A DNA stretch of 37,469 nucleotides, taken from a virus. Positions within the stretch are counted from its first letter, which is position 1. Each line of letters opens with the position of its first letter. The stretch spans positions 1 through 37,469 of IMG/VR virus record IMGVR_UViG_3300020467_001053, one strand, 5' to 3'. Position numbers and translations under genes: made by a program. The notes below the pieces were generated by a model. That model was not told the DNA's origin, did no database searches, and saw only the letters and a list, made by a program, of their open reading frames with translations. Shown in pieces: positions 2,944 to 23,278 of the stretch.

Positions 2944-3783
2944 TTGATTATACTAACAGGATCAAAAGGATTTATAGGTCAGAACTTTCTTAAGTATCTG
3001 ATAGAGCATTCGGATGAAGAGATTGTTACAGTTGATGAGCATGACTGTTGGGATTGGATAGCATACTTTAAGGACTGGGATAAAGTATCCCTCATACTGC
3101 ATCAAGGAGCGATCTCAGACACGACAGAGAGAGATATAGATAAACTCCATAGGATGAACGTTTGGTTCACTATAGAGTTGTTTGAGAGGGCAATAGAGCA
3201 TCAAATAGATGTTAAGTTTGCCTCATCCGCATCAGTATATGGCAATACAAGAAAAAGTTTGATGGGAAGTACTCCCAATAAAATATCTCCACTAAATTAC
3301 TACGCAATTACTAAGTTGCAGATGGATTATTACATCCAAGATAACTTAGATAAGTTTTCATCTATTCAGAGTTTCAGATACTTTAATGTGTATGGACAAG
3401 GAGAAGATAAAAAAGGAGATCAAGCGAGTCCTGTACATAAGTTTACACAACAGATAAAAGAAACAGGTAAACTAAAACTATTTGAGGGATCAAGTAAATA
3501 CCTAAGAGATTTTATTTGGGTTGGAGATATAGTAGAAGTCGTTCTTAATAATGATAAACCATCTGGTATCTATGATCTAGGAACCAGTAACCCAGTCAGT
3601 TTCAAGACTGTTGGTGAACTAATAGCATTAAAATATAAGGGAGAAATAGAATACATTCCATTCCCAGAACATCTAAAAGGAAAATATCAATACTTAACTA
3701 TAGCAGAAAAGGTTTGGGATCATCAATTTATAAACATAGCACAGTATCTTAATCTTATCTCAGAAGATCTACCGTCAAATTAA
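2944..3783 (+). CDS. hldD: ADP-L-glycero-D-manno-heptose 6-epimerase
   Basis: A 279-residue short-chain dehydrogenase-type epimerase that converts ADP-D-glycero- to ADP-L-glycero-D-manno-heptose, the last step of heptose activation for LPS. The NADP-binding loop is G6SKG9FIG12, the catalytic pair Tyr120-x3-Lys124 lies in NYYAITK, and the stretch from FRYFNVYG (144-151) through KLFEGSSKYLRDFIWVGD to EYIPFPEHLKGKYQ follows bacterial HldD closely, which separates it from other sugar epimerases. It is about 30 residues shorter than typical HldD. It starts at TTG with an AGGA ribosome site. It is the only complete plus-strand gene; its pathway partners lie on the other strand and its end overlaps the gene at 3755 by 29 bases, tail to tail. 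Confidence 0.92.
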   Translation: MIILTGSKGFIGQNFLKYLIEHSDEEIVTVDEHDCWDWIAYFKDWDKVSLILHQGAISDTTERDIDKLHRMNVWFTIELFERAIEHQIDVKFASSASVYGNTRKSLMGSTPNKISPLNYYAITKLQMDYYIQDNLDKFSSIQSFRYFNVYGQGEDKKGDQASPVHKFTQQIKETGKLKLFEGSSKYLRDFIWVGDIVEVVLNNDKPSGIYDLGTSNPVSFKTVGELIALKYKGEIEYIPFPEHLKGKYQYLTIAEKVWDHQFINIAQYLNLISEDLPSN

Positions 3784-4336
3784 AACTAAGAGTTCTTCTT
3801 TCTGAAATACATTTTTGTGCAAGTACCCAATGTTTTAATTGACTATCAAATAAAAAAGTTTTACCAGTTACTTGCTCTGGTCTATACGTTTCATTACTCC
3901 ATACAAATTCTAGATTATGTAAGTCATCAACATTAGACTCTTCTGGTAAATCTAAGATAGTAATACCAGATATATTTCCAGAGTGGCAATGAAGAGGTGT
4001 ATAATCACCTTTAAAATATCTATTTACCCAAACATCAGCATATAATTTAGAGAAATCAGCTTCCTTATAGGTTATTCTTGTATGTTCTTTATCAAAATCC
4101 CCAAACTGTTTTAGATATTCGTTTGCGGATTGAGAAATAAAAGTTGTAAATCCTATATCATTTAATTGATTTCTAGTTAAAAATATAATCTCAAATCCTC
4201 TGTCTAACATGTCTGGAGGATTTTGATCTTTACTATACTTCCCACTATTAACAAAATCATTAAAACTTTTAAGTACATCATCAGGACAAATGCACTCCAA
4301 AATATAAGGTCCAAAAGGTCTAAACAAATTATACAT
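3755..4336 (-). CDS. Divergent 2OG-Fe(II) oxygenase-like protein
   Basis: A 193-residue protein whose second half follows the double-stranded beta-helix oxygenase pattern: DVWVN (101-105), LHCHSGNISGITIL (115-128), GKTFLFDSQLKHWV (158-171) and ERRTLSFNL (179-187). Possible metal ligands are His116 or His118 and His169, with Arg180/181 for the co-substrate. The usual aspartate of the FxDPR motif in the two oxygenases at 158-1266 is not evident here, so activity is uncertain; it may be a binding protein or use different ligands. It is the last gene of the minus-strand glycan set (its ATG overlaps the cupin stop), suggesting it modifies the same glycan or a precursor. Residues 20-51 resemble the extended frame at 2505-2690. 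Confidence 0.6.
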   Translation of the reverse strand: MYNLFRPFGPYILECICPDDVLKSFNDFVNSGKYSKDQNPPDMLDRGFEIIFLTRNQLNDIGFTTFISQSANEYLKQFGDFDKEHTRITYKEADFSKLYADVWVNRYFKGDYTPLHCHSGNISGITILDLPEESNVDDLHNLEFVWSNETYRPEQVTGKTFLFDSQLKHWVLAQKCISERRTLSFNLTVDLLR

Positions 4337-4716
4337 TAATCACCTACAAATATTCTATGGGAATCTTCATCAAAATGTTGTGTAGAGAACTCAAATAATT
4401 CTGAATCTGTAAGAGCAACCATTTGATGTCTCATCTTTCTTGGAATATGAAACTTATCTCCAGGTTCCAATATTTTACTTTGAGAAAGTCCTATGTCACT
4501 ATTGAAACCATAATATAAATGCATCTTACCTGACTGTAGATAAAAAGTTTCATCCTTTAGAAGATGATAATGCCAAGAGCATCTCTTACCTTTACTAAAA
4601 AATAAAAGTTTACCACAATACTCTGGACTATTAACAATCCATTTCTCATATCCCCAACCTTTAGGTACAAATTTTATTTCACTAGATTCTTTGTACATCT
4701 TCTTCTTGTAAAACAT
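4336..4716 (-). CDS. Cupin-domain protein (sugar isomerase/epimerase-like)
   Basis: A 126-residue single-domain cupin. The metal-binding motif is WHYHLLKDETFYLQSGKMHL (His49, His51 and Glu56 counted from the first Met), with the second motif PGDKFHIPRKMRHQM giving His97. The start PKGWGYEKWIVN is typical of cupins related to the C-terminal half of type II mannose-6-phosphate isomerase, often found in polysaccharide clusters. Family members bind or isomerise sugar phosphates or sugar nucleotides; the substrate here is unknown. Two starts are possible: ATG 4716 (overlap of 35 bases with the kinase gene) or ATG 4698, which matches the family start better. Confidence 0.75.
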   Translation of the reverse strand: MFYKKKMYKESSEIKFVPKGWGYEKWIVNSPEYCGKLLFFSKGKRCSWHYHLLKDETFYLQSGKMHLYYGFNSDIGLSQSKILEPGDKFHIPRKMRHQMVALTDSELFEFSTQHFDEDSHRIFVGD

Positions 4717-5416
4717 AAGTTCCAGGATGCTGTACTGCTATAGCAGCACCTCTATTACCCATCATTAATGCTTGATCTATATTATCAGTACTTATATATC
4801 CATAAACTAATGCAGCAAGAAAAGTATCCCCTGCACCTACAACATCATATACCTTAACCTTTTCTGCTGGATAAATTTTGTTATTAAAAAAACATCCTTC
4901 AGACCCTTTAGTAACTATCAAATTATCAATAAAACAATCATCACTTAACGAACTACATTCTAAATCATTAATCTTAACAAAACAATTACTCTTGTTTGGA
5001 AGATATGATTTCTTACTATCAATAAAAACAGGGCATCTTGCACCTTCCACAATCTCAAATATTTTTTCAGTAGTAAGATATCCTTTATTATAATCTGAAA
5101 TAACAACAGCATCAAAACTATCTGTCATAATTGGTATCATAAGAGGTCTTACTGAATCTTCATTATCAACTCTTAGAATTTGTTGATTAGATTTTTCATC
5201 AATGAATCTAGTCTTAACTATTTTTTCAGGGTTAGTTAAAAATGTAATGTCAAGATCAAATGCTTGTAGATTTAGACATACGTTACCAGCCATTCCAGAC
5301 TTAGTTTCTACCCTATTAAAATTTAATATAGGTACTGGTGCTTCGGGACTAATTCTAGTACAGTTACCATAGATGTATTCATCTTCGCAACTATCACCTA
5401 CTAATAATACTTTCAA
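4682..5416 (-). CDS. hldE1: HldE-type heptose 7-phosphate kinase domain (PfkB family)
   Basis: A 244-residue ribokinase/PfkB-fold protein that best resembles the N-terminal kinase half of HldE (RfaE), which phosphorylates D-glycero-D-manno-heptose 7-phosphate at C1. Seen in it are GDSCEDEYIYG (7-17), RISPEAPVP (21-29, a strong HldE signature), GMAGNVCLN (41-49), NQQILRVD (77-84), SDYNKG (107-112) and VVGAGDTFLAAL (192-203) with catalytic Asp197. It is about 70 residues shorter than the usual kinase half; some of the loss lies between residues 60 and 70. It starts at TTG with GAGGAG just upstream. The gene sits between fkbM-like and cupin genes and overlaps both. Confidence 0.82.
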   Translation of the reverse strand: MKVLLVGDSCEDEYIYGNCTRISPEAPVPILNFNRVETKSGMAGNVCLNLQAFDLDITFLTNPEKIVKTRFIDEKSNQQILRVDNEDSVRPLMIPIMTDSFDAVVISDYNKGYLTTEKIFEIVEGARCPVFIDSKKSYLPNKSNCFVKINDLECSSLSDDCFIDNLIVTKGSEGCFFNNKIYPAEKVKVYDVVGAGDTFLAALVYGYISTDNIDQALMMGNRGAAIAVQHPGTYVLQEEDVQRI

Positions 5417-6236
5417 TTAAATCTCCTCTATTCCTATTAACCATAATATAATTTGGACCTATAAGATCGTCTAGATCCCAAAAATAACCCTCATTAAATT
5501 CAATATGAGTTGGAAAAATTTTTCCAATCATATACCTATCATTATAATCTCTATAATAATCATGTAAATTATACTTTGAGAATATGGATGCCTTTCCATA
5601 CTCAAACTGAATTATATCAATACATTCTAGTATATCTCCAAATCCAGTCAACACCTTAGACTCATAACCTTCAGTATCAACCTTAAGTAAGATCAATTTA
5701 TCTTTATCAAATTTATCCTTTAATATATCATCACCTCTACAAACTTGAATCTCACAAGGATCTGTAGAAGTTGGTCTAAGATCTAATATTGAAGACATTG
5801 TATGATCATTATGAACATTAATGTTCATTTTATCATTAACATCACCCAATGCCATATTATAACTTTCAATTTCAGTGTTATACTTACCTATGTTATAAAC
5901 TAATTGACTGTAAGTATCTGGAACAGGTTCAAAAGAATATACATGTGCACCTGTTATTTCTTGAGCAGCAATACTATACTCTCCAACATTTGCACCTACA
6001 TCTATAATATAATCTATCTTATGATCTTCCGATAATGCTTTTAATAAATTACATTCACCATTAGTCTTAAAATCATAATTTAGATTTTCATACTTCTTAT
6101 GATAGATAGTCGCTACAGAATCAACCCATCTATAAAAGTCACTTTTTCTATTGCCATGACTGGATGCTCCCAAGTTTCCCAAATCCCAAGCAAGATTATA
6201 AAAACGATTGGCAATGTCTTTCAATTCTTCATCCAT
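5394..6236 (-). CDS. FkbM-family methyltransferase
   Basis: A 280-residue SAM-dependent methyltransferase of the FkbM family. The SAM-binding motif is IIDVGANVGEYS (77-88), followed by VYSFEPVPDTYSQL (99-112) and a late KVDTEGYE motif, the usual FkbM set. FkbM enzymes mostly O-methylate sugars or polyketides, and in polysaccharide loci they cap or decorate glycans. I start it at ATG 6236, eight bases inside the previous gene, because AGAGGA lies seven bases upstream; an upstream ATG at 6275 would overlap by 47 bases. It lies between the two halves of the HldE activity. Confidence 0.85.
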   Translation of the reverse strand: MDEELKDIANRFYNLAWDLGNLGASSHGNRKSDFYRWVDSVATIYHKKYENLNYDFKTNGECNLLKALSEDHKIDYIIDVGANVGEYSIAAQEITGAHVYSFEPVPDTYSQLVYNIGKYNTEIESYNMALGDVNDKMNINVHNDHTMSSILDLRPTSTDPCEIQVCRGDDILKDKFDKDKLILLKVDTEGYESKVLTGFGDILECIDIIQFEYGKASIFSKYNLHDYYRDYNDRYMIGKIFPTHIEFNEGYFWDLDDLIGPNYIMVNRNRGDLIESIISR

Positions 6237-6633
6237 TAGAAATCCTCTTAATAACATTACTGCTGGAATATCCACCCACTCTAGGAAGATGTCTTACCTC
6301 ACCAGCGTGTTCCCAACCAACTACATCACCATCCCTCCAATCATCACCAAGTAATAATATATCGGGTTGATATAGTTCAATCAAATCCTCTAACTCCTTT
6401 CTACTACCAAAAGTATGTACTACATCAATATACTTGATTGCCTCAAGCATAGCAACCCTATAATGAAGATCATTTATAGGGCGATGCTCTCCTTTATCAG
6501 TACGAATCTTCTCATCCGTATCAGTAGCAACTATTACTTTGTTCCCTAGAGATCTAGCAACCTTGAATAGTTCTATGTGTCCTGGATGAAGAATATCGAA
6601 TGTGCCGTTGCACCAAACAATATCATTTTCCAT
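6229..6633 (-). CDS. hldE2: HldE-type heptose 1-phosphate adenylyltransferase domain
   Basis: A 134-residue nucleotidyltransferase corresponding in size and motifs to the C-terminal half of HldE, which adenylylates D-glycero-D-manno-heptose 1-phosphate to ADP-heptose. Key elements are NGTFDILHPGHIELF (9-23, with the HxGH nucleotide-binding motif His16-Pro-Gly-His19), HRPINDLHYRVAMLEAI, PDILLLGDDW and GYSSSNVIKRI (121-131, equivalent to the ISTT site). Glycerol-3-phosphate cytidylyltransferases share this fold, but the HldE-like kinase and hldD nearby favour heptose. Its ATG overlaps the carbamoyltransferase stop (TAATG). Confidence 0.82.
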   Translation of the reverse strand: MENDIVWCNGTFDILHPGHIELFKVARSLGNKVIVATDTDEKIRTDKGEHRPINDLHYRVAMLEAIKYIDVVHTFGSRKELEDLIELYQPDILLLGDDWRDGDVVGWEHAGEVRHLPRVGGYSSSNVIKRISNG

Positions 6634-8435
6634 TAGGTACTTTTTAATTCTTCTGCTTTATTTTCGGCAAAATTGCCCTTAATACCATCATCAGCAGGTC
6701 CACTAAAATTAGGTTCTATATACTCTCGTTCTACCTCAACAGTAACAAGTTTCTGAATTTCTGGTAGATATAAGTATTTCATTGAACTCATCTCCAATGT
6801 ATTAATTGCATCCTCTAAAGTTTCTACAAGTGGTTGTCCACCAAGATTAAAAGATGTATTAAACAAGATAGGAACATCAGATAATTTCTCAAATTCACTA
6901 ATCAAATTATAGTAATGCTCATTCTCTTCCTTAGTAAGAGTCTGAATTCTACAAGTGCCATCCTCATGTATAACTGATGGTATTTTCTCCTCTACACCTG
7001 GTACACATTCAACAGCATACATCATATGAGGTGTATCTTCTCTTCCAGCAAGATCAAACCAATCATTAACCTTCTCTTTAAGAATTGTACATGCAAATGG
7101 ACGGAAAAATTCTCTCTTCTTAACATAGTTAACAATATCTTTTCCATCCTTAATAGTAGGATCAAAAAGTATTGAACGATTACCAAGTGCTCTTGGTCCA
7201 CCCTCAGACCTTCCTTGGAAAATAGTAACTATATTTCCATCACGAATCATCTTTGCAATATCTTTAGGAGATGTATCACTAACATATTCAGGATCAATAA
7301 AATCTAGATAATTATCTGGATCATATTTTGGTCCATAATAAATTGAACTTACTCTTGGTTCTGCTTTAGGCATCCCATATTCCGATGCGTATACAAATTT
7401 TGCACCGCCAATTGATGTTCCACCATCATGAGAAATAGGTTCAACATATATGTTCAAGTCAGGGAACTCTTTCCAATACTTATAATTGGCAACACAATTT
7501 AATCCATAACCACCAGAAACACATATATTTGTTTCTCCAGTTTTCTCATGTGCTTTACGAATTAAATTAACCATCTGCTCTTCAGTTTCTTTCTGAACAG
7601 CATATGCCATATCTTTCTGAACTTGTGTATACTTTTTCTTCTGATGAACATTTAGATCTTCTTTCAATATCTTATATCTTGATACATTAAGATAAGAATT
7701 ATTTGGGTAATTAGGTATAAAGACTTCTCTATTTCCCCAATTATCCCTAAACAATGGCGGTATCTCAGGATTCTCTTTACCATAGGCAGAGAGACCCATA
7801 GTTTTTCCAGCATCAATAGATTGAAATCCACAAAACTCTGTTACAGCTTCATATATTTTAGTAAGACCTGGATATTCAGTAATAAGAATGTCAGCATCAT
7901 TCTCATCAGCTATTTCATTTAATCCAATAGGATCTTTAGTTCCAAGATGTCGGTAAACATACTTAAGACTATCCTGATTGAATGGATATTCTGCAGTTAG
8001 TATAGTCTCAAACTCATAACATACACTTGGAGATAGTTGATTCTGTAAGAAACTTCCTGCACCATCAGCAATTACTATTGCAGCAGTATCAAATCCAGAA
8101 TTTAAGAAAGCACAAGCACCATGCATCTTATGATGAATAGTATCAACATAATGAACCTTTGGATTAAATCGTAACTTAGCAAGTTTTCTTACAAGACCAT
8201 AGTATGCACTCTCACCTGTCCAATCTAACTCAGGTCCAGCACGATGAGTATGACATAAAACTAAATGATCAATATGATCAACATATTTTGTACACTCTAA
8301 TAAACCAAGTAAAGGTGCACCATCATATTTTCTTCTAGATAATCTTTCCTCTTCAATATAAAATACAATTTCACCATCAACCATTAATGTTGTACTTGCA
8401 TTATGACCACGAGCAATAGAAACAATAACACTCAT
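6633..8435 (-). CDS. NodU/CmcH-family O-carbamoyltransferase
   Basis: A complete 600-residue carbamoyltransferase that moves the carbamoyl group of carbamoyl phosphate, through carbamoyl-adenylate, to a hydroxyl of a sugar or other acceptor. The N-terminal Kae1-like domain shows ARGHNAST (8-15), EEERLSRRKYDG (28-39), His101 and His105 of HHKMHGA (metal ligands), IADGAGS (122-128) and SGGYGLNCVAN (307-317). The C-terminal YrdC-like domain has FQGRSEGGPRALGNRSILFD (406-425). NodU acts on Nod factors, and a related enzyme, WapO, carbamoylates a core heptose in Pseudomonas LPS, so a heptose acceptor fits this locus; that acceptor is inference. Confidence 0.92.
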   Translation of the reverse strand: MSVIVSIARGHNASTTLMVDGEIVFYIEEERLSRRKYDGAPLLGLLECTKYVDHIDHLVLCHTHRAGPELDWTGESAYYGLVRKLAKLRFNPKVHYVDTIHHKMHGACAFLNSGFDTAAIVIADGAGSFLQNQLSPSVCYEFETILTAEYPFNQDSLKYVYRHLGTKDPIGLNEIADENDADILITEYPGLTKIYEAVTEFCGFQSIDAGKTMGLSAYGKENPEIPPLFRDNWGNREVFIPNYPNNSYLNVSRYKILKEDLNVHQKKKYTQVQKDMAYAVQKETEEQMVNLIRKAHEKTGETNICVSGGYGLNCVANYKYWKEFPDLNIYVEPISHDGGTSIGGAKFVYASEYGMPKAEPRVSSIYYGPKYDPDNYLDFIDPEYVSDTSPKDIAKMIRDGNIVTIFQGRSEGGPRALGNRSILFDPTIKDGKDIVNYVKKREFFRPFACTILKEKVNDWFDLAGREDTPHMMYAVECVPGVEEKIPSVIHEDGTCRIQTLTKEENEHYYNLISEFEKLSDVPILFNTSFNLGGQPLVETLEDAINTLEMSSMKYLYLPEIQKLVTVEVEREYIEPNFSGPADDGIKGNFAENKAEELKST

Positions 8436-8444
8436 TTTAATACC

Positions 8445-9563
8445 TCAAGACTTAACGTTGTTCATTTCCAATACCTTTTCTATTGGTTTTTTCTTACTTG
8501 CTTTATTAGTTTTACTACTCTTAAAACCCTCAAACTTTACAGAACTTGGAGCAAGTGACTTAGGTGCTGCACCAGTAATCATTGCTGGTGCATGTGGAAG
8601 ATTCTTGTTTATATTAGTAGCACCTGTTAGAGTAGTCTTTGTTCTACTTACACCTATCTTATCTCTTACAGATTTTACAATCTTTTTAACTGTAGAATCA
8701 TCTAGTACCATAAGATCTTCATTATTTCTATCACAACAATCATCAAATGTCATTCTAATAGGACTGTATCTTCTATTATCTTTACCATTATCAATAATAG
8801 TAAAGTTTTTATTACCAGGATAAGTTATATTCTCAGGATATGTAGATCCTATAACAACTGTAGCAGGTTTCTTGACAGCATGTGCCATATGCTGTCCAGC
8901 ACTATCACATCCTATGAAATAATCAGCACCATTTATAACCCCACACCATTCATTAAGACTCATCTTCTGAGGCATGGCGATTCCCATTTCTTGCCAATTA
9001 GGAATCTCAATCTGTGACATTACTATTATACCATAATTCTTCTTCAATTGTTCTATTAAAGAAATGATATTACTTGCCTCAAAACTTCTACCACTGCTAT
9101 CAGAAATAAATCTTCCCTCTGCAGAACAAGACTGTCCAAATGGTTGAATAACTACTATCTTTTCTTTCTGTGTTCCTCTCTTTACTTCATCAACAACATT
9201 ATGACCTGTTATCTGTTCTTTCTTATTAAGATCTAATTTAATTTCTCTCGTTTCTGGAACTTCATCAAGATTATTAATCTGCATATCAAAAGCTTGAATC
9301 AGATTACACTTCTGATTAAAATAAGCATTCAATCTATAAGGTTCTAGAGTTATTACTTCTTTATCTTTTATATGATCCTCAAATAAATCCTTATGGTTCA
9401 TTAAATATACTTTATCTCTAAGTTTTTTACTTAAAGAAAAAAGTTCGGCCCAAGATTCAGATACAATAACAAAATCGTCATTGGTTTCTGCAAATCTCTC
9501 AAAACCTGGAATGGAGCAAAGCACACGCCCTGCTCCACCATTTATAAAAAAAGCTTTATTCAT
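8445..9563 (-). CDS. GT9 (ADP-heptose:LPS heptosyltransferase-like) glycosyltransferase
   Basis: A 372-residue protein resembling GT9 heptosyltransferases, which transfer heptose from ADP-heptose to LPS core. It has an N-terminal turn FINGGAGRVLCSIPG (6-20), VVIQPFGQS (137-145) and the C-domain nucleotide-binding signature FIGCDSAGQHMAHA (216-229, with Asp220), followed by PATVVIGSTYPENITYP. The N-terminal Rossmann half is divergent. Residues about 305-372 are a Thr/Lys/Ala-rich, probably disordered tail not typical of GT9. It is the first gene behind the promoter at 9588-9616, nine bases upstream of the carbamoyltransferase. Donor identity is inferred from the hld genes. Confidence 0.75.
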   Translation of the reverse strand: MNKAFFINGGAGRVLCSIPGFERFAETNDDFVIVSESWAELFSLSKKLRDKVYLMNHKDLFEDHIKDKEVITLEPYRLNAYFNQKCNLIQAFDMQINNLDEVPETREIKLDLNKKEQITGHNVVDEVKRGTQKEKIVVIQPFGQSCSAEGRFISDSSGRSFEASNIISLIEQLKKNYGIIVMSQIEIPNWQEMGIAMPQKMSLNEWCGVINGADYFIGCDSAGQHMAHAVKKPATVVIGSTYPENITYPGNKNFTIIDNGKDNRRYSPIRMTFDDCCDRNNEDLMVLDDSTVKKIVKSVRDKIGVSRTKTTLTGATNINKNLPHAPAMITGAAPKSLAPSSVKFEGFKSSKTNKASKKKPIEKVLEMNNVKS

Positions 9564-9650: not shown

Positions 9651-10742
9651 TTATTTGTAAGATACGCAAACCATTCCACCTTTACCCATATCTCCACACA
9701 ATCCGTTGTTACCACCCATTACATTAGATGCCCATCCACCTGCACCAGGAACAGCCATATATCCACAACATCCTTGACACTGCCTTCCACAACAGGTTCC
9801 ACTAGACCAAGAGTAACAACACTTAGTTTCATCAGCAAAACAGAATATTGGTGCGTGTTGTTGCCATCCATAATGGTTGGTATCATAACATATCTTAGGC
9901 CAAATACCAGGAATACCGTATACGATTCCCATATTTGCCACATTTTCTAATGAAGTATATGCATCTGGGTGTGTTACACATCCACAATATCCAGAACCTG
10001 GTGTATAGTCAATAGGTCCTTGACATATAGCACAACTATTATCAAAACAATAATTAGTACCTTGGTTACATATACAACTTCCAGAGTCTCCGCAACAAGC
10101 AGATGTCTGTTTATACATGTTAAATGAACCAACGTTTCCTTGCCAGTTCACTTTAGAACCAACACCACCTTCGGCACAAACTCTTAATAAACCATATCCT
10201 TGAACATAAGAAGGACAACCTTGAACTCTTCCTTGAGAACTGGTACTAGGCATACAGCAATAAGCACAACCAGCACAGATAGTATATTGACAACCTGCTT
10301 TTACTGGAATCCTAACCATTGCATAAGCACCTGTAGATCCATATGAAGATCCACCACAGTACTGTCCACCACCTGATCCACTACCTGCACCCCACATTTG
10401 GAATTTAGCACAAGTTACACCAGCAGGAACAGTCCATGTACAACTACAACCACATTGCCACTGTGTAGTTTGTGCAGCATTTCCTGAACAACAAACCTTA
10501 AAACCGTCTGTCCAGAAACTATCAGCATTACCAGCATCAACAATATGTTGCCATAATTCTTCACAAGCAGGAGCATTTAGGATCTGACCTCTAGTACAGT
10601 CCAGCCACTCCTTAACACAATCTATATTATAGCTACTACTACCTGCAGATCCGCCTATTTTATGTAAGCACTCATCTTTCTCAGCGATTTCTTTTCTAAG
10701 TGCTACCTGTTGATTAAAAGCACTATAAACTAATACATCCAT
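9651..10742 (-). CDS. Cysteine-rich glycine-rich tail-fibre tip protein 1
   Basis: A 363-residue protein with about 38 cysteines (roughly 10%), many as CC, CxC or CxxC, and no signal peptide. After a helical start (1-90) comes CSCTWTVPAGVTCAKFQMWG (99-118), the entry strand of the glycine-rich adhesin domain found in phage fibres, then GSTGAYAMVRIPVKAG, CAGCAYCC and a C-terminal GGMVCVSYK. The fold element WTVPxGVT...GGGAGG...VSY is shared with the proteins at 22367-23278 and 25602-27221, but those have few cysteines. Probably a receptor-contacting tip, with the cysteines forming disulfides or binding metal. It is the last gene of a late unit and is paralogous to 11451-12542. Confidence 0.75.
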   Translation of the reverse strand: MDVLVYSAFNQQVALRKEIAEKDECLHKIGGSAGSSSYNIDCVKEWLDCTRGQILNAPACEELWQHIVDAGNADSFWTDGFKVCCSGNAAQTTQWQCGCSCTWTVPAGVTCAKFQMWGAGSGSGGGQYCGGSSYGSTGAYAMVRIPVKAGCQYTICAGCAYCCMPSTSSQGRVQGCPSYVQGYGLLRVCAEGGVGSKVNWQGNVGSFNMYKQTSACCGDSGSCICNQGTNYCFDNSCAICQGPIDYTPGSGYCGCVTHPDAYTSLENVANMGIVYGIPGIWPKICYDTNHYGWQQHAPIFCFADETKCCYSWSSGTCCGRQCQGCCGYMAVPGAGGWASNVMGGNNGLCGDMGKGGMVCVSYK

Positions 10743-10756
10743 TTAATCAAATCCTC

Positions 10757-11422
10757 TTATAATTCTGGTGGTGCAGTATAATCTGGAACTTCTTTCAATT
10801 CACTTACAGCAGTGATTGGTAATTTAGGCATAGTACCAACAATAGGTTGATTTATAAACTTCCAATGCTTCATTGGAGGATTATTACTAATAAAGGTATC
10901 CAATTCTGTTATATAAGTGTTAACCGCAGTTGCAGTTGCCGAACTAAATGCATATTTATTTGCATAGCTTTCAATATAAGCTTTCTGAACCTGTGCTTTT
11001 TGTGCCCAAACATTAGTTTGATCTACAACTATCTGATCAAACTTAAACTTATTTGTACCATGATCATATTCTAAAAGATAATTATCTTTTATTTGTGGAT
11101 TATCAACCTTCTTAAATTTCTCACCATTACTTAAAGTTTCTTCAGTATAAGTATAATCCCATATAACTTCTTTATAGGATTGTAACATATACATTAAAAC
11201 AGGTAGATCATCTGCCTCTTTAGCATCAAGAGTTTTCTTTTCCCATTCAGTCTCTGCTGGTGGATCAGGTAATCCAACACCTGCAGTATGAACACTACCA
11301 CCTGTAGTCACATAAACATCTAACAGCTCAGGTCCATCATAAGTATAAGTCGCTGTCTGTGTAGTAGATATTCCCGAAACCCACATTTCGTTGGGTAAAG
11401 CATAAGTAAAAGTTGCTATCAT
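10757..11422 (-). CDS. Fibre-associated protein, possible assembly factor
   Basis: A 221-residue protein, not cysteine-rich, placed between the two cysteine-rich tip genes. The N-terminal part has a beta-strand pattern (TYALPNEMWVSGIS, TYTYDGPELLDVYV). The middle and C-terminal parts look helical (EADDLPVLMYMLQSYKEVIW, AQKAQVQKAYIESYANKYAF). A helical ~200-residue gene next to a fibre tip gene is typical of tail-fibre assembly chaperones, so that is the best guess, but I cannot assign a family. A late promoter at 11452-11459 lies about 30 bases upstream of its ATG. Confidence 0.55.
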   Translation of the reverse strand: MIATFTYALPNEMWVSGISTTQTATYTYDGPELLDVYVTTGGSVHTAGVGLPDPPAETEWEKKTLDAKEADDLPVLMYMLQSYKEVIWDYTYTEETLSNGEKFKKVDNPQIKDNYLLEYDHGTNKFKFDQIVVDQTNVWAQKAQVQKAYIESYANKYAFSSATATAVNTYITELDTFISNNPPMKHWKFINQPIVGTMPKLPITAVSELKEVPDYTAPPEL

Positions 11423-11450
11423 TGTTCCGATCTATCCAATTAACCTTTGA

Positions 11451-12542
11451 TTATTTATAAGACACACAAACCATACCCATTCTACCTGCATCACCATAAG
11501 GATCGTAAGATGTGTATCCACCACACTTAAATCCAAAGGTTCCACCCATAGCTGGCATCTGTCTGTAACCATATTGTGCCTGTCTGCAGCATCCACCTGT
11601 GTATATACTTGTGTAACACATAGGAGCATCACAACATCCTAACCAACCATATATTGATGGATATTGTCCACAGTGTGACCAACTTTCACTAATACCAACA
11701 GAACCGAAGTTACCATTAAGTGTATAAACTTGCCCATCAGTAGCAGATCCAAATGCTTGCTTACAAGATCTTACTGTAGGTAATCTATAACGGTTTGCCC
11801 AATAAGGTCTTCCAACAGAAGTGTAAACAATACCATCTGGATAACAAATTTGTGTACCAGAGTTACATATACATCCACCTAACATCAAGCACCAGTCACC
11901 TGTACTCTGAATAAAGCATTGCATACCAGTACAACCAAATCCACCTGACCAGTCTGCTCTAACCTTTCTCTCACAGGATAACATACCTTCACCACCCATA
12001 GCACAGAAGTTAGTTAATCCTGGACCCTGAACGTAAGATGTTTCTCCATCTACAGTACTATCACCACTATAATGATAGCAGCAATAAGCACAACCAGCAC
12101 ACATAGTATAAGATTGTCCTGATGATACTGGCATAATTACAGATGCATATGCTCCAGTACTACCCATAGGAGATGTAGCACAACAACATCCAGCACCTGA
12201 AGGAGCACCAGCACCCCAGATTTGGAATCTAGCACATGTTACGCCACTAGGAACAGTCCATGTACAGTTACATCCACATCTATAATATCCTGTTTGGTCA
12301 CAAACCTTAAATCCACTAGTCCAAGTTGACCCATCAGCAGGATCTTTTGGTATCATACACCATAAAAATGCTTCCTGTGCAGAGGTTGTACAGAGAAACT
12401 GTGCTTTTGCCTCATCAGTATCTCCACCTCCACCACCATCACCTAATCTCATGCTAATAGCACTACTCAATCCTACAGAATGAGCACGTAATTCTTGGTT
12501 TACTGCCTGTATAGCATTATACGATAATACATCAGCTGCCAT
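11451..12542 (-). CDS. Cysteine-rich glycine-rich tail-fibre tip protein 2
   Basis: A 363-residue paralogue of 9651-10742 with about 31 cysteines. It keeps the same order of elements: helical start, FKVC, CGCNCTWTVPSGVTCARFQI (about 93-112), WGAGAPSGAGCCC, GSTGAYASVIMPVSSG, MCAGCAYCC, SYVQGPGL and the final GMVCVSYK. The middle segment between about 190 and 330 differs strongly from copy 1, the usual pattern where a tip domain contacts variable receptors. The C-terminal codons Tyr-Lys-stop read TATAAATAA and so also form a late promoter for the next gene. It follows the MGR-module protein at 12548-12844 by only five bases. Confidence 0.75.
   Translation of the reverse strand: MAADVLSYNAIQAVNQELRAHSVGLSSAISMRLGDGGGGGDTDEAKAQFLCTTSAQEAFLWCMIPKDPADGSTWTSGFKVCDQTGYYRCGCNCTWTVPSGVTCARFQIWGAGAPSGAGCCCATSPMGSTGAYASVIMPVSSGQSYTMCAGCAYCCYHYSGDSTVDGETSYVQGPGLTNFCAMGGEGMLSCERKVRADWSGGFGCTGMQCFIQSTGDWCLMLGGCICNSGTQICYPDGIVYTSVGRPYWANRYRLPTVRSCKQAFGSATDGQVYTLNGNFGSVGISESWSHCGQYPSIYGWLGCCDAPMCYTSIYTGGCCRQAQYGYRQMPAMGGTFGFKCGGYTSYDPYGDAGRMGMVCVSYK
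11452..11459 (-). promoter_or_regulatory. T4-type late promoter
   Basis: TATAAATA on the minus strand, about 30 bases upstream of the ATG at 11422, lying within the last codons of the upstream gene. It is an exact match to the T4 late consensus. Confidence 0.7.
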
Positions 12543-12547
12543 GTTTC

Positions 12548-12844
12548 CTATACCTCAGTAATATTTGTAACTAAATTTGTTGTTGAATCGTATTCCATTG
12601 TAAACGATTTCTCCGTACCGCCTATTTTTTCAGTGAATGATGTAATTAATCCAGTAAGAGTGTTATATCCTACATTAGAATATATAACTTCATTTGTTCC
12701 TGAACCTACAGTGAGTCCAATAACATGGTTATAACTATCAGTTGTAATACCAGATGTACGTGTAAATTCTAGAGTCTTAGAGGAACCACCTCCTCCAGCA
12801 CCACCAGAATTTATATTGATACTACTACCTAGAAACCGTCCCAT
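12548..12844 (-). CDS. Stand-alone MGR-module fibre protein
   Basis: A 98-residue protein beginning MGRFLGSSININSGGAGGGG, then EFTRTSGITTD, IYSNVGYNTLTGLITSFTEK and ending LVTNITEV. The whole protein matches the first ~95 residues of the proteins at 24089-25570 and 25602-27221, so it is that module with no tip attached. The ribosome site AAGGAG lies seven bases before the ATG. It may act as a docking piece to which the adjacent cysteine-rich tip associates. Confidence 0.75.
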   Translation of the reverse strand: MGRFLGSSININSGGAGGGGSSKTLEFTRTSGITTDSYNHVIGLTVGSGTNEVIYSNVGYNTLTGLITSFTEKIGGTEKSFTMEYDSTTNLVTNITEV

Positions 12845-12855
12845 GTATTCTCTCC

Positions 12856-13176
12856 TTAAGCAGGTTGTTCAAGACCATATACATTCACGCTTAATGATGA
12901 AGAAGACCCATATGCTACAATATTCGTACCTGCATTAACTGCAATAGCAGTTCTTTCAAGTATACCCTTAACAGGTATAGTTGTATCATACTCAATCCAA
13001 TCTTTATTGGTTGGATTTATCTGTGTGCCTATTGCAATTCTAACATCTGCTGGATTTGCAGTAGACCGATTAAGTACGTTAATATTAACAACCGCAAGAG
13101 TAGATGCAGGAACTGTATACACAGTAGTTAAAGTAGTAGAAGCCAAGGATACTTGACCTAGAATTCCAGATGCCAT
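12856..13176 (-). CDS. Small beta-sandwich fibre/baseplate protein
   Basis: A 106-residue protein, MASGILGQVSLASTTLTTVY at the start, then AVVNINVLNRSTANPADVRI, WIEYDTTIPVKG and VYGLEQPA at the end. The pattern (start strands, VPAST.., NRS...ADVRIAIG, EYD..I, a late IVAYGSS) is the same as the first two domains of the 507-residue protein at 20812-22335 and loosely the 113-residue protein at 33978-34319. It is probably a structural trimer component of the fibre base. It is the first gene of a late unit (promoter 13203-13210). Confidence 0.65.
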   Translation of the reverse strand: MASGILGQVSLASTTLTTVYTVPASTLAVVNINVLNRSTANPADVRIAIGTQINPTNKDWIEYDTTIPVKGILERTAIAVNAGTNIVAYGSSSSLSVNVYGLEQPA

Positions 13177-13226: not shown

Positions 13227-16200
13227 TTAACTTTGACCAACAAAGAAAGTATTAACTCTAGACTCATTAGTAAGAGTTGTAATTCCTGCATTAGCAAAAG
13301 TCATCACTGTTGTTAATCCAACATTGGTATGATTTTGTAGCATGATAGAATAATTCGTATCAGCAGTATCAATATATGATTTAGCAGCAGCCTGTGTTGG
13401 GACTTTCTCATGACTATTTTGTGAGAAAGTAACGTCAGTAGAGAACTCATTAATTTGAGCACCTAACTGAGCACCAATTGAACCCAATCTCAATGAAGTT
13501 AGACCAGATAGATCGAATGCACTAGCGTTCAATGTTGCCGAACCAGTTGCTTGGTTAACACGGAAGTACTTACCAACACGGAAGTTACCATCTTGGTCAG
13601 TTGAAACATAAAATACACGACCAGGAAACTCTTCATTAATTTCCTGAGTTGGAATTGGATCTACTTTTGGAACTGATGGCCAATTAGTAGTTGATGTTCC
13701 ACCAGTACCGACTTGTAAGAAGTCATGACCTGTCAATCTTGTTTGACTGTATAAGTAACGAATCTTAACTTCCTGTTCATCAAAACATCTAGCAGCCTTT
13801 TCTTCAACAAGTGTTAATGTAGTAAGACCGTGTGGATCAGTTGAAACTCCAGTGACAGAAACAAACTCATCATCAATCTTAAGATAGTCTCCGTTTGCTA
13901 CAGAGAATGAGTTTGCAACAGTTGCTCTAAATGAAGTTGAAACACCAGTATAGTCCTTAAAGCATTCTGCGTTAGACAATAGAGTGGATGCACCAATAGC
14001 AACTAGAGTATCACCAATAACATAACTGGTAGCAATACCAGCACCATCTTGTTCTCTAGTAACTGTCATAGAGTTTGATGTTGGTAGACTTACAATCTTA
14101 ACCAACTCAGTTCCTATCCTAGCATATTCACCAGGGTTGAATCCAGCAATACTATTAACACTAAATGTTGTGTCTCCAGGAGCTGCTGGAACAAGGAACT
14201 GTGAAGTGTTTGTAGTAATAGGATATCTAACAAAGTATGTTTGTCCACCAGTATGTGCAGCACCAGTAGAATCTAACTGTGCTCTAGTAATCGATACACT
14301 ACCTCGACCATCAGCACCAGATTGACTTACGCCATTAATAACAAACGTAAATGCATCAGCACCACTAATACTATCATTACCAAATCCACCATTACCAGAT
14401 CCAGTAATAAATTCTATACTACCATTCTCTTCAAGAGTAGGTGAAGTTCCTAATCCAGAAAGAACAATACTAAATCCTGACTGACCTCTGTTAGCATCAG
14501 TATTATTAAGTAAAGTAGCAGTAGTTCCAGAACTTAGTCCTTCTACAGTTTCACCAGGAGCAAAACCAGTTCCAACACCTGCAGGACCAGCAGTAATTAA
14601 TGAATGATATAATTTTTCTTGCTTGGTTCCCTGAATAGTAGTAATCTTTCCTATTGCTGTAGATGATTGACCTCTAAACCTTTCACCCTGTTGGAATCCA
14701 CCTCCAGTTACAGTGCTAGGATCAAATTCACAAACCAATCCTTCTATGTTACCTTCTCTAGGAACTTCAAGTGGACTAAATCCAGAACTCACAACACCAT
14801 ATGTTCCCCAAGAACTATTTCCAGCAAGAGATCTAATTCTTCCTCCACGAGTAGCAGAGTAACTAATATGGTTATAATAAGTGAAACAGGAAACCATTTC
14901 GGCAGAACCACCATCTGTCACCCAGAATGCCATTCCATCATCATGCATGTTAGTGAACGAGTCAAACACAATTGACTTGTTAGATGGGTTTACACCATCT
15001 CTAAATTGTCTATGAATTCCACCATCAACAATTGCACCAATACCTTTTACTGATTTTGCAGAACAGTTTGATATGTAAGGTGATTTTTCAATTGGACTTT
15101 CAGGATTCATCTGAACAAATACACCCCTAGAAACTGAGTTGTTAGGATCATATGCATTTGCAGTATAAGTTAAATCAGTAGAAGCAACTGTTTGTCCTAT
15201 TGAAACCTCAATAGATGTTGGACTAATAAAGTTAGTAACTTTAGTTCCAGCAGATACACCAGCACCAGTTACAGATGTTCCAACTAAATCTGGATATAAA
15301 TTAGTACCAGTAACAATTGTTCCTGAAATAGATCCAGTTATAGTTCCAGCAATTCCTGCTGGCTCAAAACCAGTCATACCATCCATAAAGATATCTTTAA
15401 GCATGGTGGCATCACTTAGCAAGAACATTACAGACTCTTCGTTCTTTAATGTCTCAACATTAGTAATAGAAATATCATTGTTACCATTCTCCCATGTATC
15501 ACTAGTTGACCACAATCCACCTATTGTTGGACGAATTGCAATTGTTTTCTCATCAAAACTAGAATCTAAAACACTAGCAACTTTACCACCTGTACCATTC
15601 CTTATGGTAGCTCCATAACCAACTGGTGCAGTTGTGCCCATTGTAATACAATTAGCAGCAGCAGATACAAAATTATGTGCTGTTGTATCTGTAATAGCAC
15701 CCTCACCACCATTCACATTAACAGTAATTGATGTTGATGTTGTTGCTATAACTTTAATTTCTGTATTATAAACATAATCATGCCCAGAAGCAGTTCCAGT
15801 TGCACCACTAGCACGAGGATATGTTTTTTGTGTAGTATTTGCATCATTATTATAATCACAAGTAAATGTTAATGAATCAGTTGCAATATTAATATAATCT
15901 AAAGTAGAAAATATATGATTACCAATTGTCATTTCCATGTCACCAGTGACTGGATTATAGCTAATGTCAGTTGGAGTGTATGTTGCTAAAGGTGCAGATT
16001 GTAATGTTAATAATTGATGATGAGAATCATTTCCTACCTTTGGTGTAATCTTAGACGTTCTTAAGTTATCACCAACAATTGATACTCCTGGTGGAACAAC
16101 TATAGGAAGATCTTCCTGATATGTACCTGCTTTTACATAAATTGTAGCAGGACCAGTTGCTATACCACAAGCATACTTAACAGATGCAAATGATCTACTA

Positions 16201-17201
16201 ATATTTGATCCATCATTAGAGTCACTTCCTTCTTCTGTTACATAATAAACTGGATGAGTTACACTATTATCTTCCCAGTTAGGTACACCTGAAGAACTTA
16301 CAGATAATACTTGACCATTAGTTCCTACAGGTAATCTTGCAGCACCAGTGGTGTAGTAAACCAAGTCACCCTGAGTGGTCATTACATTATTGGAAGCACC
16401 CTCAACTAGTGAATTCCAATAGTTACCTAAACTATCAGTTGTAGGATCTTGATTCTGGTTTCCAGTTGAAGAAACACCAATATAACTATTTGCTTGTTTC
16501 TTTACAGCATCACCTAATTGATAATTAGTTGCTGCATCCCATTCTCCTCTCCATCTAATACCTTCAACAACCAATGACCAATTATTACTTTCAGTTGGTT
16601 GAACATTAGTACTAGTTGTTATAGCAACATAAGTATTACCACCATATCTTACAACATTACCTTGAGTATAATCTGTTGTAGAACTCCATGCACCAGATAC
16701 ATTGAATCCAGTAGTTAAGATATCCCAATCATTAGCTAAATTATATGCTGGTGGTTTATTAGTATGAATACTAGTTGCAACATAAGTATATCCACCATAA
16801 TTTACAACGTCACCAACCTGATACTCAGTAGTAGATTCCCAAGTATCTTCATAATTAAATGACTTGATATACTCCACCATATTAGAGGTAGAGAATCCTG
16901 TCGTAGAAAATCCTGTGGTTACTCTAAATTGAGTATTACCATATTTAATTATATCGTTTACTTTATAATATCGTCCTGACTCCCATTCTCCCTGATTGGT
17001 AATTCCCTCTGTGTGTAGAGACCAATTAGCACTCAGGTCATTATTATAGAATAAATTTTCACTATTGGTAGAGGTATGATTCGTCTTACAGACATAAGTA
17101 TTCGCACCGAATTTTACGATGTCATCGATGACATAAGCAGTACTAGCAACCCAGTTACCACGCCAATTAAACTTAAGTCTACCTAATCTAAATTCGGCCA
17201 T
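13227..17201 (-). CDS. Very long tail fibre with carbohydrate-binding-like repeats and beta-helix
   Basis: A 1324-residue structural protein. Residues 12-270 hold five tandem ~50-residue repeats with the pattern W..(S/T)..Y..(G/D)D(V/I)V.YG...Y......NW, resembling CBM5/12 chitin-binding modules. Then VYYVTEEGSDSNDG and TIYVKAGTYQEDLPIVVPPG start a pectate-lyase-type right-handed beta-helix (about 312-900), as in receptor-degrading or receptor-binding spikes. A later part has STDQDGNFRVGKYFRVNQ, shared with the 825-residue protein at 34320-36797, and a final segment (NSHEKVPTQAAAKSYID) that may form a coil. No catalytic residues are recognisable. Probably a long side fibre or spike. Confidence 0.8.
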   Translation of the reverse strand: MAEFRLGRLKFNWRGNWVASTAYVIDDIVKFGANTYVCKTNHTSTNSENLFYNNDLSANWSLHTEGITNQGEWESGRYYKVNDIIKYGNTQFRVTTGFSTTGFSTSNMVEYIKSFNYEDTWESTTEYQVGDVVNYGGYTYVATSIHTNKPPAYNLANDWDILTTGFNVSGAWSSTTDYTQGNVVRYGGNTYVAITTSTNVQPTESNNWSLVVEGIRWRGEWDAATNYQLGDAVKKQANSYIGVSSTGNQNQDPTTDSLGNYWNSLVEGASNNVMTTQGDLVYYTTGAARLPVGTNGQVLSVSSSGVPNWEDNSVTHPVYYVTEEGSDSNDGSNISRSFASVKYACGIATGPATIYVKAGTYQEDLPIVVPPGVSIVGDNLRTSKITPKVGNDSHHQLLTLQSAPLATYTPTDISYNPVTGDMEMTIGNHIFSTLDYINIATDSLTFTCDYNNDANTTQKTYPRASGATGTASGHDYVYNTEIKVIATTSTSITVNVNGGEGAITDTTAHNFVSAAANCITMGTTAPVGYGATIRNGTGGKVASVLDSSFDEKTIAIRPTIGGLWSTSDTWENGNNDISITNVETLKNEESVMFLLSDATMLKDIFMDGMTGFEPAGIAGTITGSISGTIVTGTNLYPDLVGTSVTGAGVSAGTKVTNFISPTSIEVSIGQTVASTDLTYTANAYDPNNSVSRGVFVQMNPESPIEKSPYISNCSAKSVKGIGAIVDGGIHRQFRDGVNPSNKSIVFDSFTNMHDDGMAFWVTDGGSAEMVSCFTYYNHISYSATRGGRIRSLAGNSSWGTYGVVSSGFSPLEVPREGNIEGLVCEFDPSTVTGGGFQQGERFRGQSSTAIGKITTIQGTKQEKLYHSLITAGPAGVGTGFAPGETVEGLSSGTTATLLNNTDANRGQSGFSIVLSGLGTSPTLEENGSIEFITGSGNGGFGNDSISGADAFTFVINGVSQSGADGRGSVSITRAQLDSTGAAHTGGQTYFVRYPITTNTSQFLVPAAPGDTTFSVNSIAGFNPGEYARIGTELVKIVSLPTSNSMTVTREQDGAGIATSYVIGDTLVAIGASTLLSNAECFKDYTGVSTSFRATVANSFSVANGDYLKIDDEFVSVTGVSTDPHGLTTLTLVEEKAARCFDEQEVKIRYLYSQTRLTGHDFLQVGTGGTSTTNWPSVPKVDPIPTQEINEEFPGRVFYVSTDQDGNFRVGKYFRVNQATGSATLNASAFDLSGLTSLRLGSIGAQLGAQINEFSTDVTFSQNSHEKVPTQAAAKSYIDTADTNYSIMLQNHTNVGLTTVMTFANAGITTLTNESRVNTFFVGQS
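16391..17165 (-). repeat. Five tandem CBM5/12-like protein repeats
   Basis: Repeat starts within the protein: NWRGNWVAST, TNQGEWESGR, NYEDTWESTT, NVSGAWSSTT and RWRGEWDAAT. Each is followed by Y.(V/L/Q)(D/G/N)(D/N)(I/V/A)V and a strand such as YGGNTYVA. Unit length is about 45-57 residues and identity is patchy, consistent with old duplication. Confidence 0.7.
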
Positions 17202-22360: not shown

Positions 22361-22367
22361 TATTTAT
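22361..22367 (-). promoter_or_regulatory. T4-type late promoter
   Basis: ATAAATA (context TAATAAATAAC) on the minus strand, about 25 bases upstream of the ATG at 22335 and five bases from the end of the upstream gene. Confidence 0.6.
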
Positions 22368-23278
22368 TATGTGTACGCACTAGGGAATGATCTTCCACTA
22401 CCCCATATAACATAAACAGTTCCTGCACCACCTTGTCCACCGATTCCACCATATTGACCAGCACCGCCACCGCCACCATAATGTCCACCCAGACCACCAT
22501 TTCCAGACCCACTTCCATTACCATAATAAGCACCAGTTCCAGCAGCACCATTGGTTCCACCATTATATCCACTACCGCCCATTGGAGTACTAACATTATT
22601 ATTATTGATTATATCATATGTGCCAGCACCATTTACACTGCTACTAGAAGTACTAGTTGGGAAAGCACCAGCACCGCCATTAAATCCAGTACCACCGCCT
22701 CCTCCACCAGTTCCGTATCCACCACATCCACCAGAAAAATTACCAGTTCCATCTAAATCAACCCTTTGATTGCCATTTCCACCAGCACCACCCGTAAGAG
22801 AAGCATCACCAGCACCTAATCCTCCACCATCACCAACTACAACATTTCCAGCATTAGAAGAATTACTACCACTCCATGTTCCACCACTTGCATGGCATAC
22901 AATACTATTATCACTATTCCTTTTAATTTTACTATCACCACCATCTCCACCTTGTGCTGTTGGGTGTTGAGAACCAGATCCACCAGATCCACCGTCACCA
23001 ACAGTTACAGTGAATATTTCTCCAGGAGTTACAGAAATATTATTCTTCCAAGCACCACCACCGCCAGCTCCACCAACAGCTCTATATCCACCTCCTCCTC
23101 CTCCACCACCGCCAGCTCCACCACCAACACATGCAACAGATATTGATGTTACACCATCAGGTACAGTAAAGCTATAATTAGCACCTCCACCAGTAAACAT
23201 TTGTTGTCCAGGTTCAACTGACCCACCAACAATACCATCAGGTGTAGATGTGAGTAGCATTATTGTTTGTAATAACAT
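22367..23278 (-). CDS. Glycine-rich tail-fibre tip protein
   Basis: A 303-residue protein of which about 40% is Gly. After a short start it has YSFTVPDGVTSISVACVGGG (about 35-54), then Gly runs separated by Ser/Asn, as in polyglycine-II bundles of phage adhesin tips, and ends VYVIWGSGRSFPSAYT, a C-terminal signature common in marine myophage fibres. It shares the TVPxGVT strand with the cysteine-rich proteins but has only four cysteines. It follows the cupredoxin-like gene by one base. Confidence 0.78.
   Translation of the reverse strand: MLLQTIMLLTSTPDGIVGGSVEPGQQMFTGGGANYSFTVPDGVTSISVACVGGGAGGGGGGGGGYRAVGGAGGGGAWKNNISVTPGEIFTVTVGDGGSGGSGSQHPTAQGGDGGDSKIKRNSDNSIVCHASGGTWSGSNSSNAGNVVVGDGGGLGAGDASLTGGAGGNGNQRVDLDGTGNFSGGCGGYGTGGGGGGTGFNGGAGAFPTSTSSSSVNGAGTYDIINNNNVSTPMGGSGYNGGTNGAAGTGAYYGNGSGSGNGGLGGHYGGGGGAGQYGGIGGQGGAGTVYVIWGSGRSFPSAYT

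Follow-up and report, generated by a model that had tools for sequence, protein, structure and literature searches.

The 37.5-kb virus record IMGVR_UViG_3300020467_001053, referred to here in its full length as the window, is syntenic with the tail-fibre region of the Prochlorococcus phage P-SSM2 (Kyanoviridae) and encodes two paralogous proteins, A and B (Table 1), in which cysteine is extraordinarily abundant. We find that such loading with cysteine tracks an adjoining gene for a GT9-like glycosyltransferase, and not a particular fold, across unrelated scaffolds in cyanophages and in Vibrio and Aeromonas phages. Since the cysteines follow this gene, lie mostly at polar positions and mostly do not appear to pair, the simplest account is that they are sugar acceptors; on comparison of the sequences we put the probability that they are attachment sites for S-glycosylation by the GT9-like enzyme at slightly better than even (about 0.55). 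It is very unusual for proteins with about 10% cysteine to be synthesized in the cytoplasm and then displayed on the exterior of a virus.

An earlier note on this DNA had described the pair as cysteine-packed fibre-tip proteins, and its counts of 38 (B) and 31 (A) cysteines are reproduced from the two open reading frames (ORFs). As it had also stated, many occur as CC, CxC or CxxC (six, four and four times in B; five, four and two times in A), with CCC clusters as well, and glycine makes up about 15% of both proteins overall. The window's remaining 34 ORFs contain 105 cysteines in 11220 residues (0.94%), and with these as reference the binomial probability of the excess is 2e-27 for B and 5e-20 for A. 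A chance or frame artefact is ruled out by these values (P < 1e-19) and by a ratio of non-synonymous to synonymous substitution (dN/dS) of 0.16 in the subfamily of relatives typified by phage S-SSM7; the twins are real, conserved genes. Their P-SSM2 homologues, genes 304 and 306, are both annotated 'hypothetical', their PHROGs families (35878 and 4205) are of unknown function, and we found no paper on these cysteine-rich proteins. The two paralogues are indeed of equal length, but the sameness is a coincidence, as full-length relatives span 327-438 residues. They diverge most in the middle, as had been pointed out, with 15-16% identity over residues 241-320 versus 60-62% over residues 81-160. 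The proposal that the TVPxGV motif and glycine-rich scaffold are held in common with cysteine-poor ORFs of the window is also borne out: PF21722 (Gly_rich_2) is matched by the ORFs at 22367-23278 and 25602-27221 and by cysteine-rich relatives from phage S-SSM7, family phrog_4205 links the cysteine-rich and cysteine-poor kinds, and the cysteine-poor Gly_rich_2 members in the window have 0.4-1.0% cysteine.

Scans of viral contigs with a single protein as query gave no match, and relatives were reached by alignment queries, which led to 67 further viral loci with the cysteine-rich family; the scans took in at most 80 loci per query, and ORF calling was mechanical. Two cysteine-rich paralogues are present in 67 loci (phage records included), always 654-936 bases apart, and in all 67 paired loci a gene for about 220 residues with 0-3 cysteines lies between them. 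The cysteine content of the family is 6-12% (median 9.3%), versus a median of 0.8% in 713 other gene-like ORFs of the same loci. Triplets are found in 82 of the 84 loci of the S-SSM7-type set, and phages S-SSM7, Sf-FS3, S-CAM1 and S-CAM3 carry three copies together with a chaperone-like gene. The family alignment found no match in GTDB genomes. Virions of S-SM1, S-PM2 and Syn9 have been analysed, but Syn9 is without the family, and we found no proteomics of a carrier phage. The expectation that the cysteines would be conserved among homologues holds for part of the positions, with 8 of 40 majority-cysteine columns at least 90% conserved in the twins' subfamily and 22 cysteine columns at least 95% conserved in the S-SSM7 subfamily (194 sequences), where cysteine is conserved as strongly as tryptophan. 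Together with the median dN/dS of about 0.16 in the S-SSM7 type, this conservation rules out neutral drift from glycine to cysteine. One locus (L060) encodes a third cysteine-rich protein (10.1% cysteine; 15035-16078, minus strand) on the opposite strand, and also contains a second chaperone-like ORF.

The product of the GT9-like gene scores 31.2 bits against PF01075 (cut-off 22) and retains the GT9 donor-site motif GCDSxGQH, of which the D and H are invariant in 11 sequences; against the NCBIfam equivalogs for lipopolysaccharide (LPS) heptosyltransferases I-III it scores 25-28 bits, and the cut-offs of 170-467 are not reached. Of the 71 loci to which the cysteine-rich proteins led, 66 contain the gene, and in the phage collection close matches to it occur only in records with cysteine-rich fibre genes. 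The reverse search, from the GT9-like gene, covered the best 80 loci of at least 579 matches and scored ORFs of at least 150 residues and at least 4% cysteine within 5 kb; such an ORF is found in 65 of the 80 loci, in 54 of the 58 where at least 4 kb lies upstream, and among 1.6% of genes further away. Most of these ORFs are again glycine-rich relatives, and others are not (40 cysteines in 300 residues, 40 in 536 and 58 in 760); over the two directions of search, partners on non-glycine-rich scaffolds have 26-73 cysteines. Distant relatives of the enzyme adjoin cysteine-enriched tail proteins in Vibrio phages K479 and SBP1 and Aeromonas phage HJ05 (39 cysteines in 1643 residues, 41 in 925 and 23 in 559), and AG-345-P14 and AG-345-O18 have the GT9-like gene beside cysteine-rich proteins of other scaffolds. 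In GTDB, all seven phage-like contigs with the GT9-like enzyme contain a cysteine-rich ORF (8.8-11.4% cysteine), and the maximum in 12 canonical bacterial GT9 loci is 4.1%, with none of the 12 above that.

A comparison within one scaffold points the same way. The SBP1 fibre has 43 cysteines versus 3 in its homologues from Vibrio phages 11E33.1, 1.037.O and 1.261.O over 930 aligned residues; the GT9-like gene was not found in these three phages, whose records are partial or contig-level, so that its absence there is not certain. Of the residues facing the 43 SBP1 cysteines, 32 are polar, versus 465 of 887 elsewhere (p = 0.005), and in the twins' subfamily the variable cysteine columns are otherwise polar in 64% of cases, versus a background of 40%.

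The fold of the twins was approached through AlphaFold2 models built from 111- and 109-sequence alignments, with mean predicted local distance difference test scores (pLDDT) of 83.7 for A and 86.6 for B. Both models match the tail fibre gp24 of the cyanophage Pam3 (7ypx), A with Z 11.8 and a root-mean-square deviation (rmsd) of 3.1 over 188 residues, B with Z 13.0 and rmsd 3.1 over 193 residues. The tail tip of Bxb1 is a further match, with Z 11.9 for A and 12.2 for B; the glycine-rich domain of ALK/LTK follows at a lower Z of about 8, and unrelated rows of the comparison lie below Z 3. The adhesin-fold half of the earlier reading, with cysteines loaded on a known glycine-rich scaffold, therefore holds at the level of structure prediction. 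Profile searches of the PDB with the twins and with the chaperone-like protein gave chance-level matches only. The twins give no match to PF21722, whereas the S-SSM7 relatives exceed its curated cut-off, and 12 of 111 relatives match at E up to 0.1; the twins are thus sequence-divergent neighbours of the Gly_rich_2 family. Pam3 gp24 consists of an alpha-helical stalk, a TNF-like domain and a glycine-rich receptor-binding tip, and is folded by the chaperone gp25 (PMC9608196). The cysteine-free protein encoded between the twins has no Pfam match itself, and its syntenic counterpart in S-SSM7 matches PF16778 (Phage_tail_APC, 1e-9) and phrog 4912 (tail fiber assembly); judged by relatives and synteny it is probably a fibre-assembly chaperone. 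The twins are best read, from the predicted structures and gene order, as probable fibre-tip adhesins accompanied by this putative chaperone.

These elements can be combined into a model in which the twins would sit as adhesins at the tail-fibre tips of a T4-like cyanophage, each with an alpha-helical N-terminus and, distal to it, a beta/glycine-rich domain like that of Pam3 gp24; the product of the gene that separates them would probably assist their folding. In the host cytoplasm the GT9-like enzyme would add a sugar, probably heptose, to many of the cysteine thiols. The product would be a tip with a dense coat of S-linked glycan, tailored by the carbamoyltransferase and neighbouring enzymes, and the glycan might act in receptor contact, shielding or hydration. 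The putative donor is ADP-heptose, genes for which adjoin the cyanophage modules. An HldE-like kinase is encoded in all six of the cyanophage or marine records with the GT9-like gene that were tested, and was not found in Syn9 or in the three Vibrio and Aeromonas phages with the GT9-like gene that were tested. The hosts of these Vibrio and Aeromonas phages are expected to make ADP-heptose for LPS, and the LPS of marine Synechococcus is not known to contain heptose. More tentatively, and at a little under even odds, we propose that a system of this kind is widespread among phages: the GT9-like enzyme would S-heptosylate cysteines by the tens on fibre tips, any adjoining fibre scaffold would be loaded, and cyanophages would add the genes for the ADP-heptose donor.

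Several points weigh against S-glycosylation. The linkage between the GT9-like gene and cysteine loading is silent on which residue is modified, and the GT9-like loci are related to one another and are not phylogenetically independent, so that the counts given above overstate the independent evidence, which we estimate by eye at roughly five or six cases by scaffold. Four loci (L179, L180, L209 and L214) have enough flanking sequence and no cysteine-rich ORF within 5 kb of the GT9-like gene, and the same-scaffold comparison concerns one fibre lineage with weak alignments (24-39% identity). In phage S-SM2, HldE- and HldD-like genes stand in a sugar cluster of their own, and both the GT9-like gene and the cysteine-rich family are missing; heptose genes are therefore not exclusive to the module and serve other pathways too. 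About 22 cysteines are near-invariant in the S-SSM7 type, as structural residues would be, and the pair C89-C154 (A numbering) behaves as expected of a disulfide, since 102 sequences have both cysteines, 13 have neither and one has a single cysteine, so that the two go together in 115 of 116.

The last two observations count towards disulfide networks, the main rival. The cysteines would be reduced in the cytoplasm and oxidized after lysis, and cross-links between glycine-rich loops, and perhaps between subunits, would staple the tip and stabilize it in seawater. The target of the GT9-like enzyme would then lie elsewhere, for example in fibre serines and threonines or in host LPS. There are precedents in the tail disulfide network of phage Milano (PMC10811340) and in the Pam3 fibres, which are disulfide-linked to the baseplate (PMC11821841), and the number of near-invariant cysteines, 22, is even. 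The variable cysteines, however, do not change in pairs. Full-length sequences with an even cysteine count (58) are about as frequent as those with an odd count (54), the five coincident changes of C89 and C154 on the tree have a nominal P of 7e-5 that becomes 0.18 after correction for 2628 pairs, and in the S-SSM7 type the variable cysteines change independently, with no pairwise covariation. These results speak against strict intramolecular pairing, although disulfides in the conserved cysteine core are possible. Nor would stapling give a reason for cysteine loading beside the GT9-like gene on coiled-coil, glycine-rich and other scaffolds, and on balance we consider it unlikely. A phage glutaredoxin (2614-2862) was considered as a linked redox partner, but it matches 453 phage records, mostly of cyanophages, and is thus not specific to the module.

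Other explanations are a good deal less probable than stapling. The CC, CCC and CxC thiolates might hold zinc, iron or copper, for fold stability or receptor mimicry, as would suit the CCC, CxC and CxxC clusters and the single CHC motif that is conserved among S-SSM7-type sequences; we think this improbable, as the twins' subfamily has no conserved histidine column (the best reaches 48%), the cysteines are spread over the whole domain, domain searches matched no metal-site family and a link to the GT9-like gene is not expected. That link would be equally unexpected if free cysteines of the tip bonded covalently to thiols or disulfides of the host surface at adsorption. Their polar and probably exposed positions would favour such an exchange, but far fewer than 30-70 cysteines would be needed and free thiols should oxidize in oxic seawater, and we regard it as the least probable of the explanations. 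Phages are generally known to encode enzymes that alter the sugars of the host surface, and the linkage could be indirect, the cysteine-rich fibres binding a receptor that the phage GT9 enzyme alters on the host (for example to block re-adsorption) without acting on the fibre. The neighbouring heptose genes have been described as LPS genes (PMC3037559), which would fit, but an indirect linkage explains neither the cysteine loading on unrelated scaffolds nor the cysteine-poor form of the same scaffold without the GT9-like gene, and it seems to us scarcely more probable than thiol exchange. The suggestion in the earlier note that disulfides, metals or host thiols account for the cysteines is thus not favoured over S-glycosylation, given the random parity, the lack of covarying pairs after correction and the lack of a conserved histidine.

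Table 1. Genes of the cysteine-rich fibre module and its surroundings in the window
Feature	Position	Strand	Details
Protein A, cysteine-rich fibre-tip protein (probable)	11451..12542	-	363 aa, 31 Cys (8.5%); homologue of P-SSM2 gene 304; AlphaFold2 model, Pam3 gp24 match
Protein B, cysteine-rich fibre-tip protein (probable)	9651..10742	-	363 aa, 38 Cys (10.5%); homologue of P-SSM2 gene 306; AlphaFold2 model, Pam3 gp24 match
Cysteine-free protein between the twins, probable fibre-assembly chaperone	10757..11422	-	221 aa; homologue of P-SSM2 gene 305; as Pam3 gp25
GT9-like glycosyltransferase (heptosyltransferase family)	8445..9563	-	372 aa; PF01075 E 1.8e-7; P-SSM2 gene 307 / T4-GC 302; downstream of twins
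NodU/TobZ-type carbamoyltransferase, possible sugar tailoring	6633..8435	-	PF16861 2.5e-57, PF02543 1.7e-24; in 64 loci with the module
HldE-C-like heptose-1-phosphate adenylyltransferase	6229..6633	-	best NCBIfam TIGR02199 4e-31, below equivalog cut-off
HldE-N-like heptose-7-phosphate kinase	4682..5416	-	best NCBIfam TIGR02198 1e-42, below equivalog cut-off
HldD-like ADP-glyceromanno-heptose 6-epimerase	2944..3783	+	best NCBIfam TIGR02197 2e-61, below equivalog cut-off
Tail fibre protein, upstream of module	13227..17201	-	1324 aa; phrog_9851 tail fiber; conserved context, in 59 loci

Three 2OG-Fe(II) oxygenases (158-718, 700-1266 and 3755-4336, minus strand) and an FkbM methyltransferase (5394-6275) are encoded near the module in the window, and they might act in sugar tailoring or in hydroxylation of the fibre proteins. 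The window homologue of the P-SSM2 'cysteine dioxygenase' (4336-4716, minus strand) proves to be a short cupin (PF07883) that lies within the sugar cluster; a link to cysteine metabolism is rejected, and the P-SSM2 annotation is doubtful. The window also has a gene for a 98-residue protein (12548-12844, minus strand), the N-terminal MGR(F/Y)(V/L)GSSIN..GGGG of which is common to the long fibre proteins at 24089-25570 and 25602-27221, and this protein may be a free-standing docking domain. Among the other loci, Marine virus AG-345-O18 (L160) encodes a 758-residue fibre-like protein with 73 cysteines (10012-12288), followed by a 290-residue protein with 31 (12285-13157); both are without the TWTVP scaffold and adjoin GT9-like and carbamoyltransferase genes. 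A contig binned as Woesearchaeota (L255) encodes a 593-residue protein with 52 cysteines (7040-8821) beside its GT9-like gene, and Vibrio phage SBP1 (L163) has a second tail protein upstream of its GT9-like gene (5246-7786), with 15 cysteines clustered in the second half. In L179 and L209 the GT9-like gene lies amid other small enzyme-like genes.

If the cysteines are indeed S-glycosylated, virions would have a type of modification that is new, and ocean phages would commonly bear it, as one virus collection has 247 matches of the S-SSM7 type and at least 579 to the GT9-like gene. Genes at present classified as phage 'LPS genes' would gain a function, and many cyanophages would meet their hosts with a glycoconjugate surface in place of bare protein. 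Sugar on a cysteine sulfur, as proposed here, is found in the S-glycosylated bacteriocin sublancin; its enzyme SunS, however, is from another family of glycosyltransferases and acts on one or a few cysteines of a peptide. The Agrobacterium phage Milano (PMC10811340) resembles the present case in its cysteine-enriched virion proteins and contractile tail, but its structural proteins average 2.1% cysteine, versus 8-12% here, where the enrichment is confined to fibre proteins near the GT9-like gene. Pam3 gp24 and gp25 (PMC9608196; PDB 7ypx, 7yfw) share with the twins and their neighbour the predicted fold of the distal domain, the alpha-helical N-terminus and, probably, the adjoining assembly-chaperone gene; the glycine-rich domain of gp24, however, is 39% glycine, whereas the twins have 15% glycine overall and 8.5-10.5% cysteine, the fibre-chaperone paper mentions no cysteine, and the window module also contains the GT9-like gene. 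In TibC and AAH (BAHT) heptose is loaded on serines of autotransporter adhesins (PMC4358343), by enzymes with a four-cysteine iron finger, whereas here the proposed acceptor is cysteine and the enzyme matches the general GT9 model alone. These are the closest functional analogues of the proposed system, with a heptosyltransferase that places many sugars on a surface adhesin from an ADP-heptose donor.

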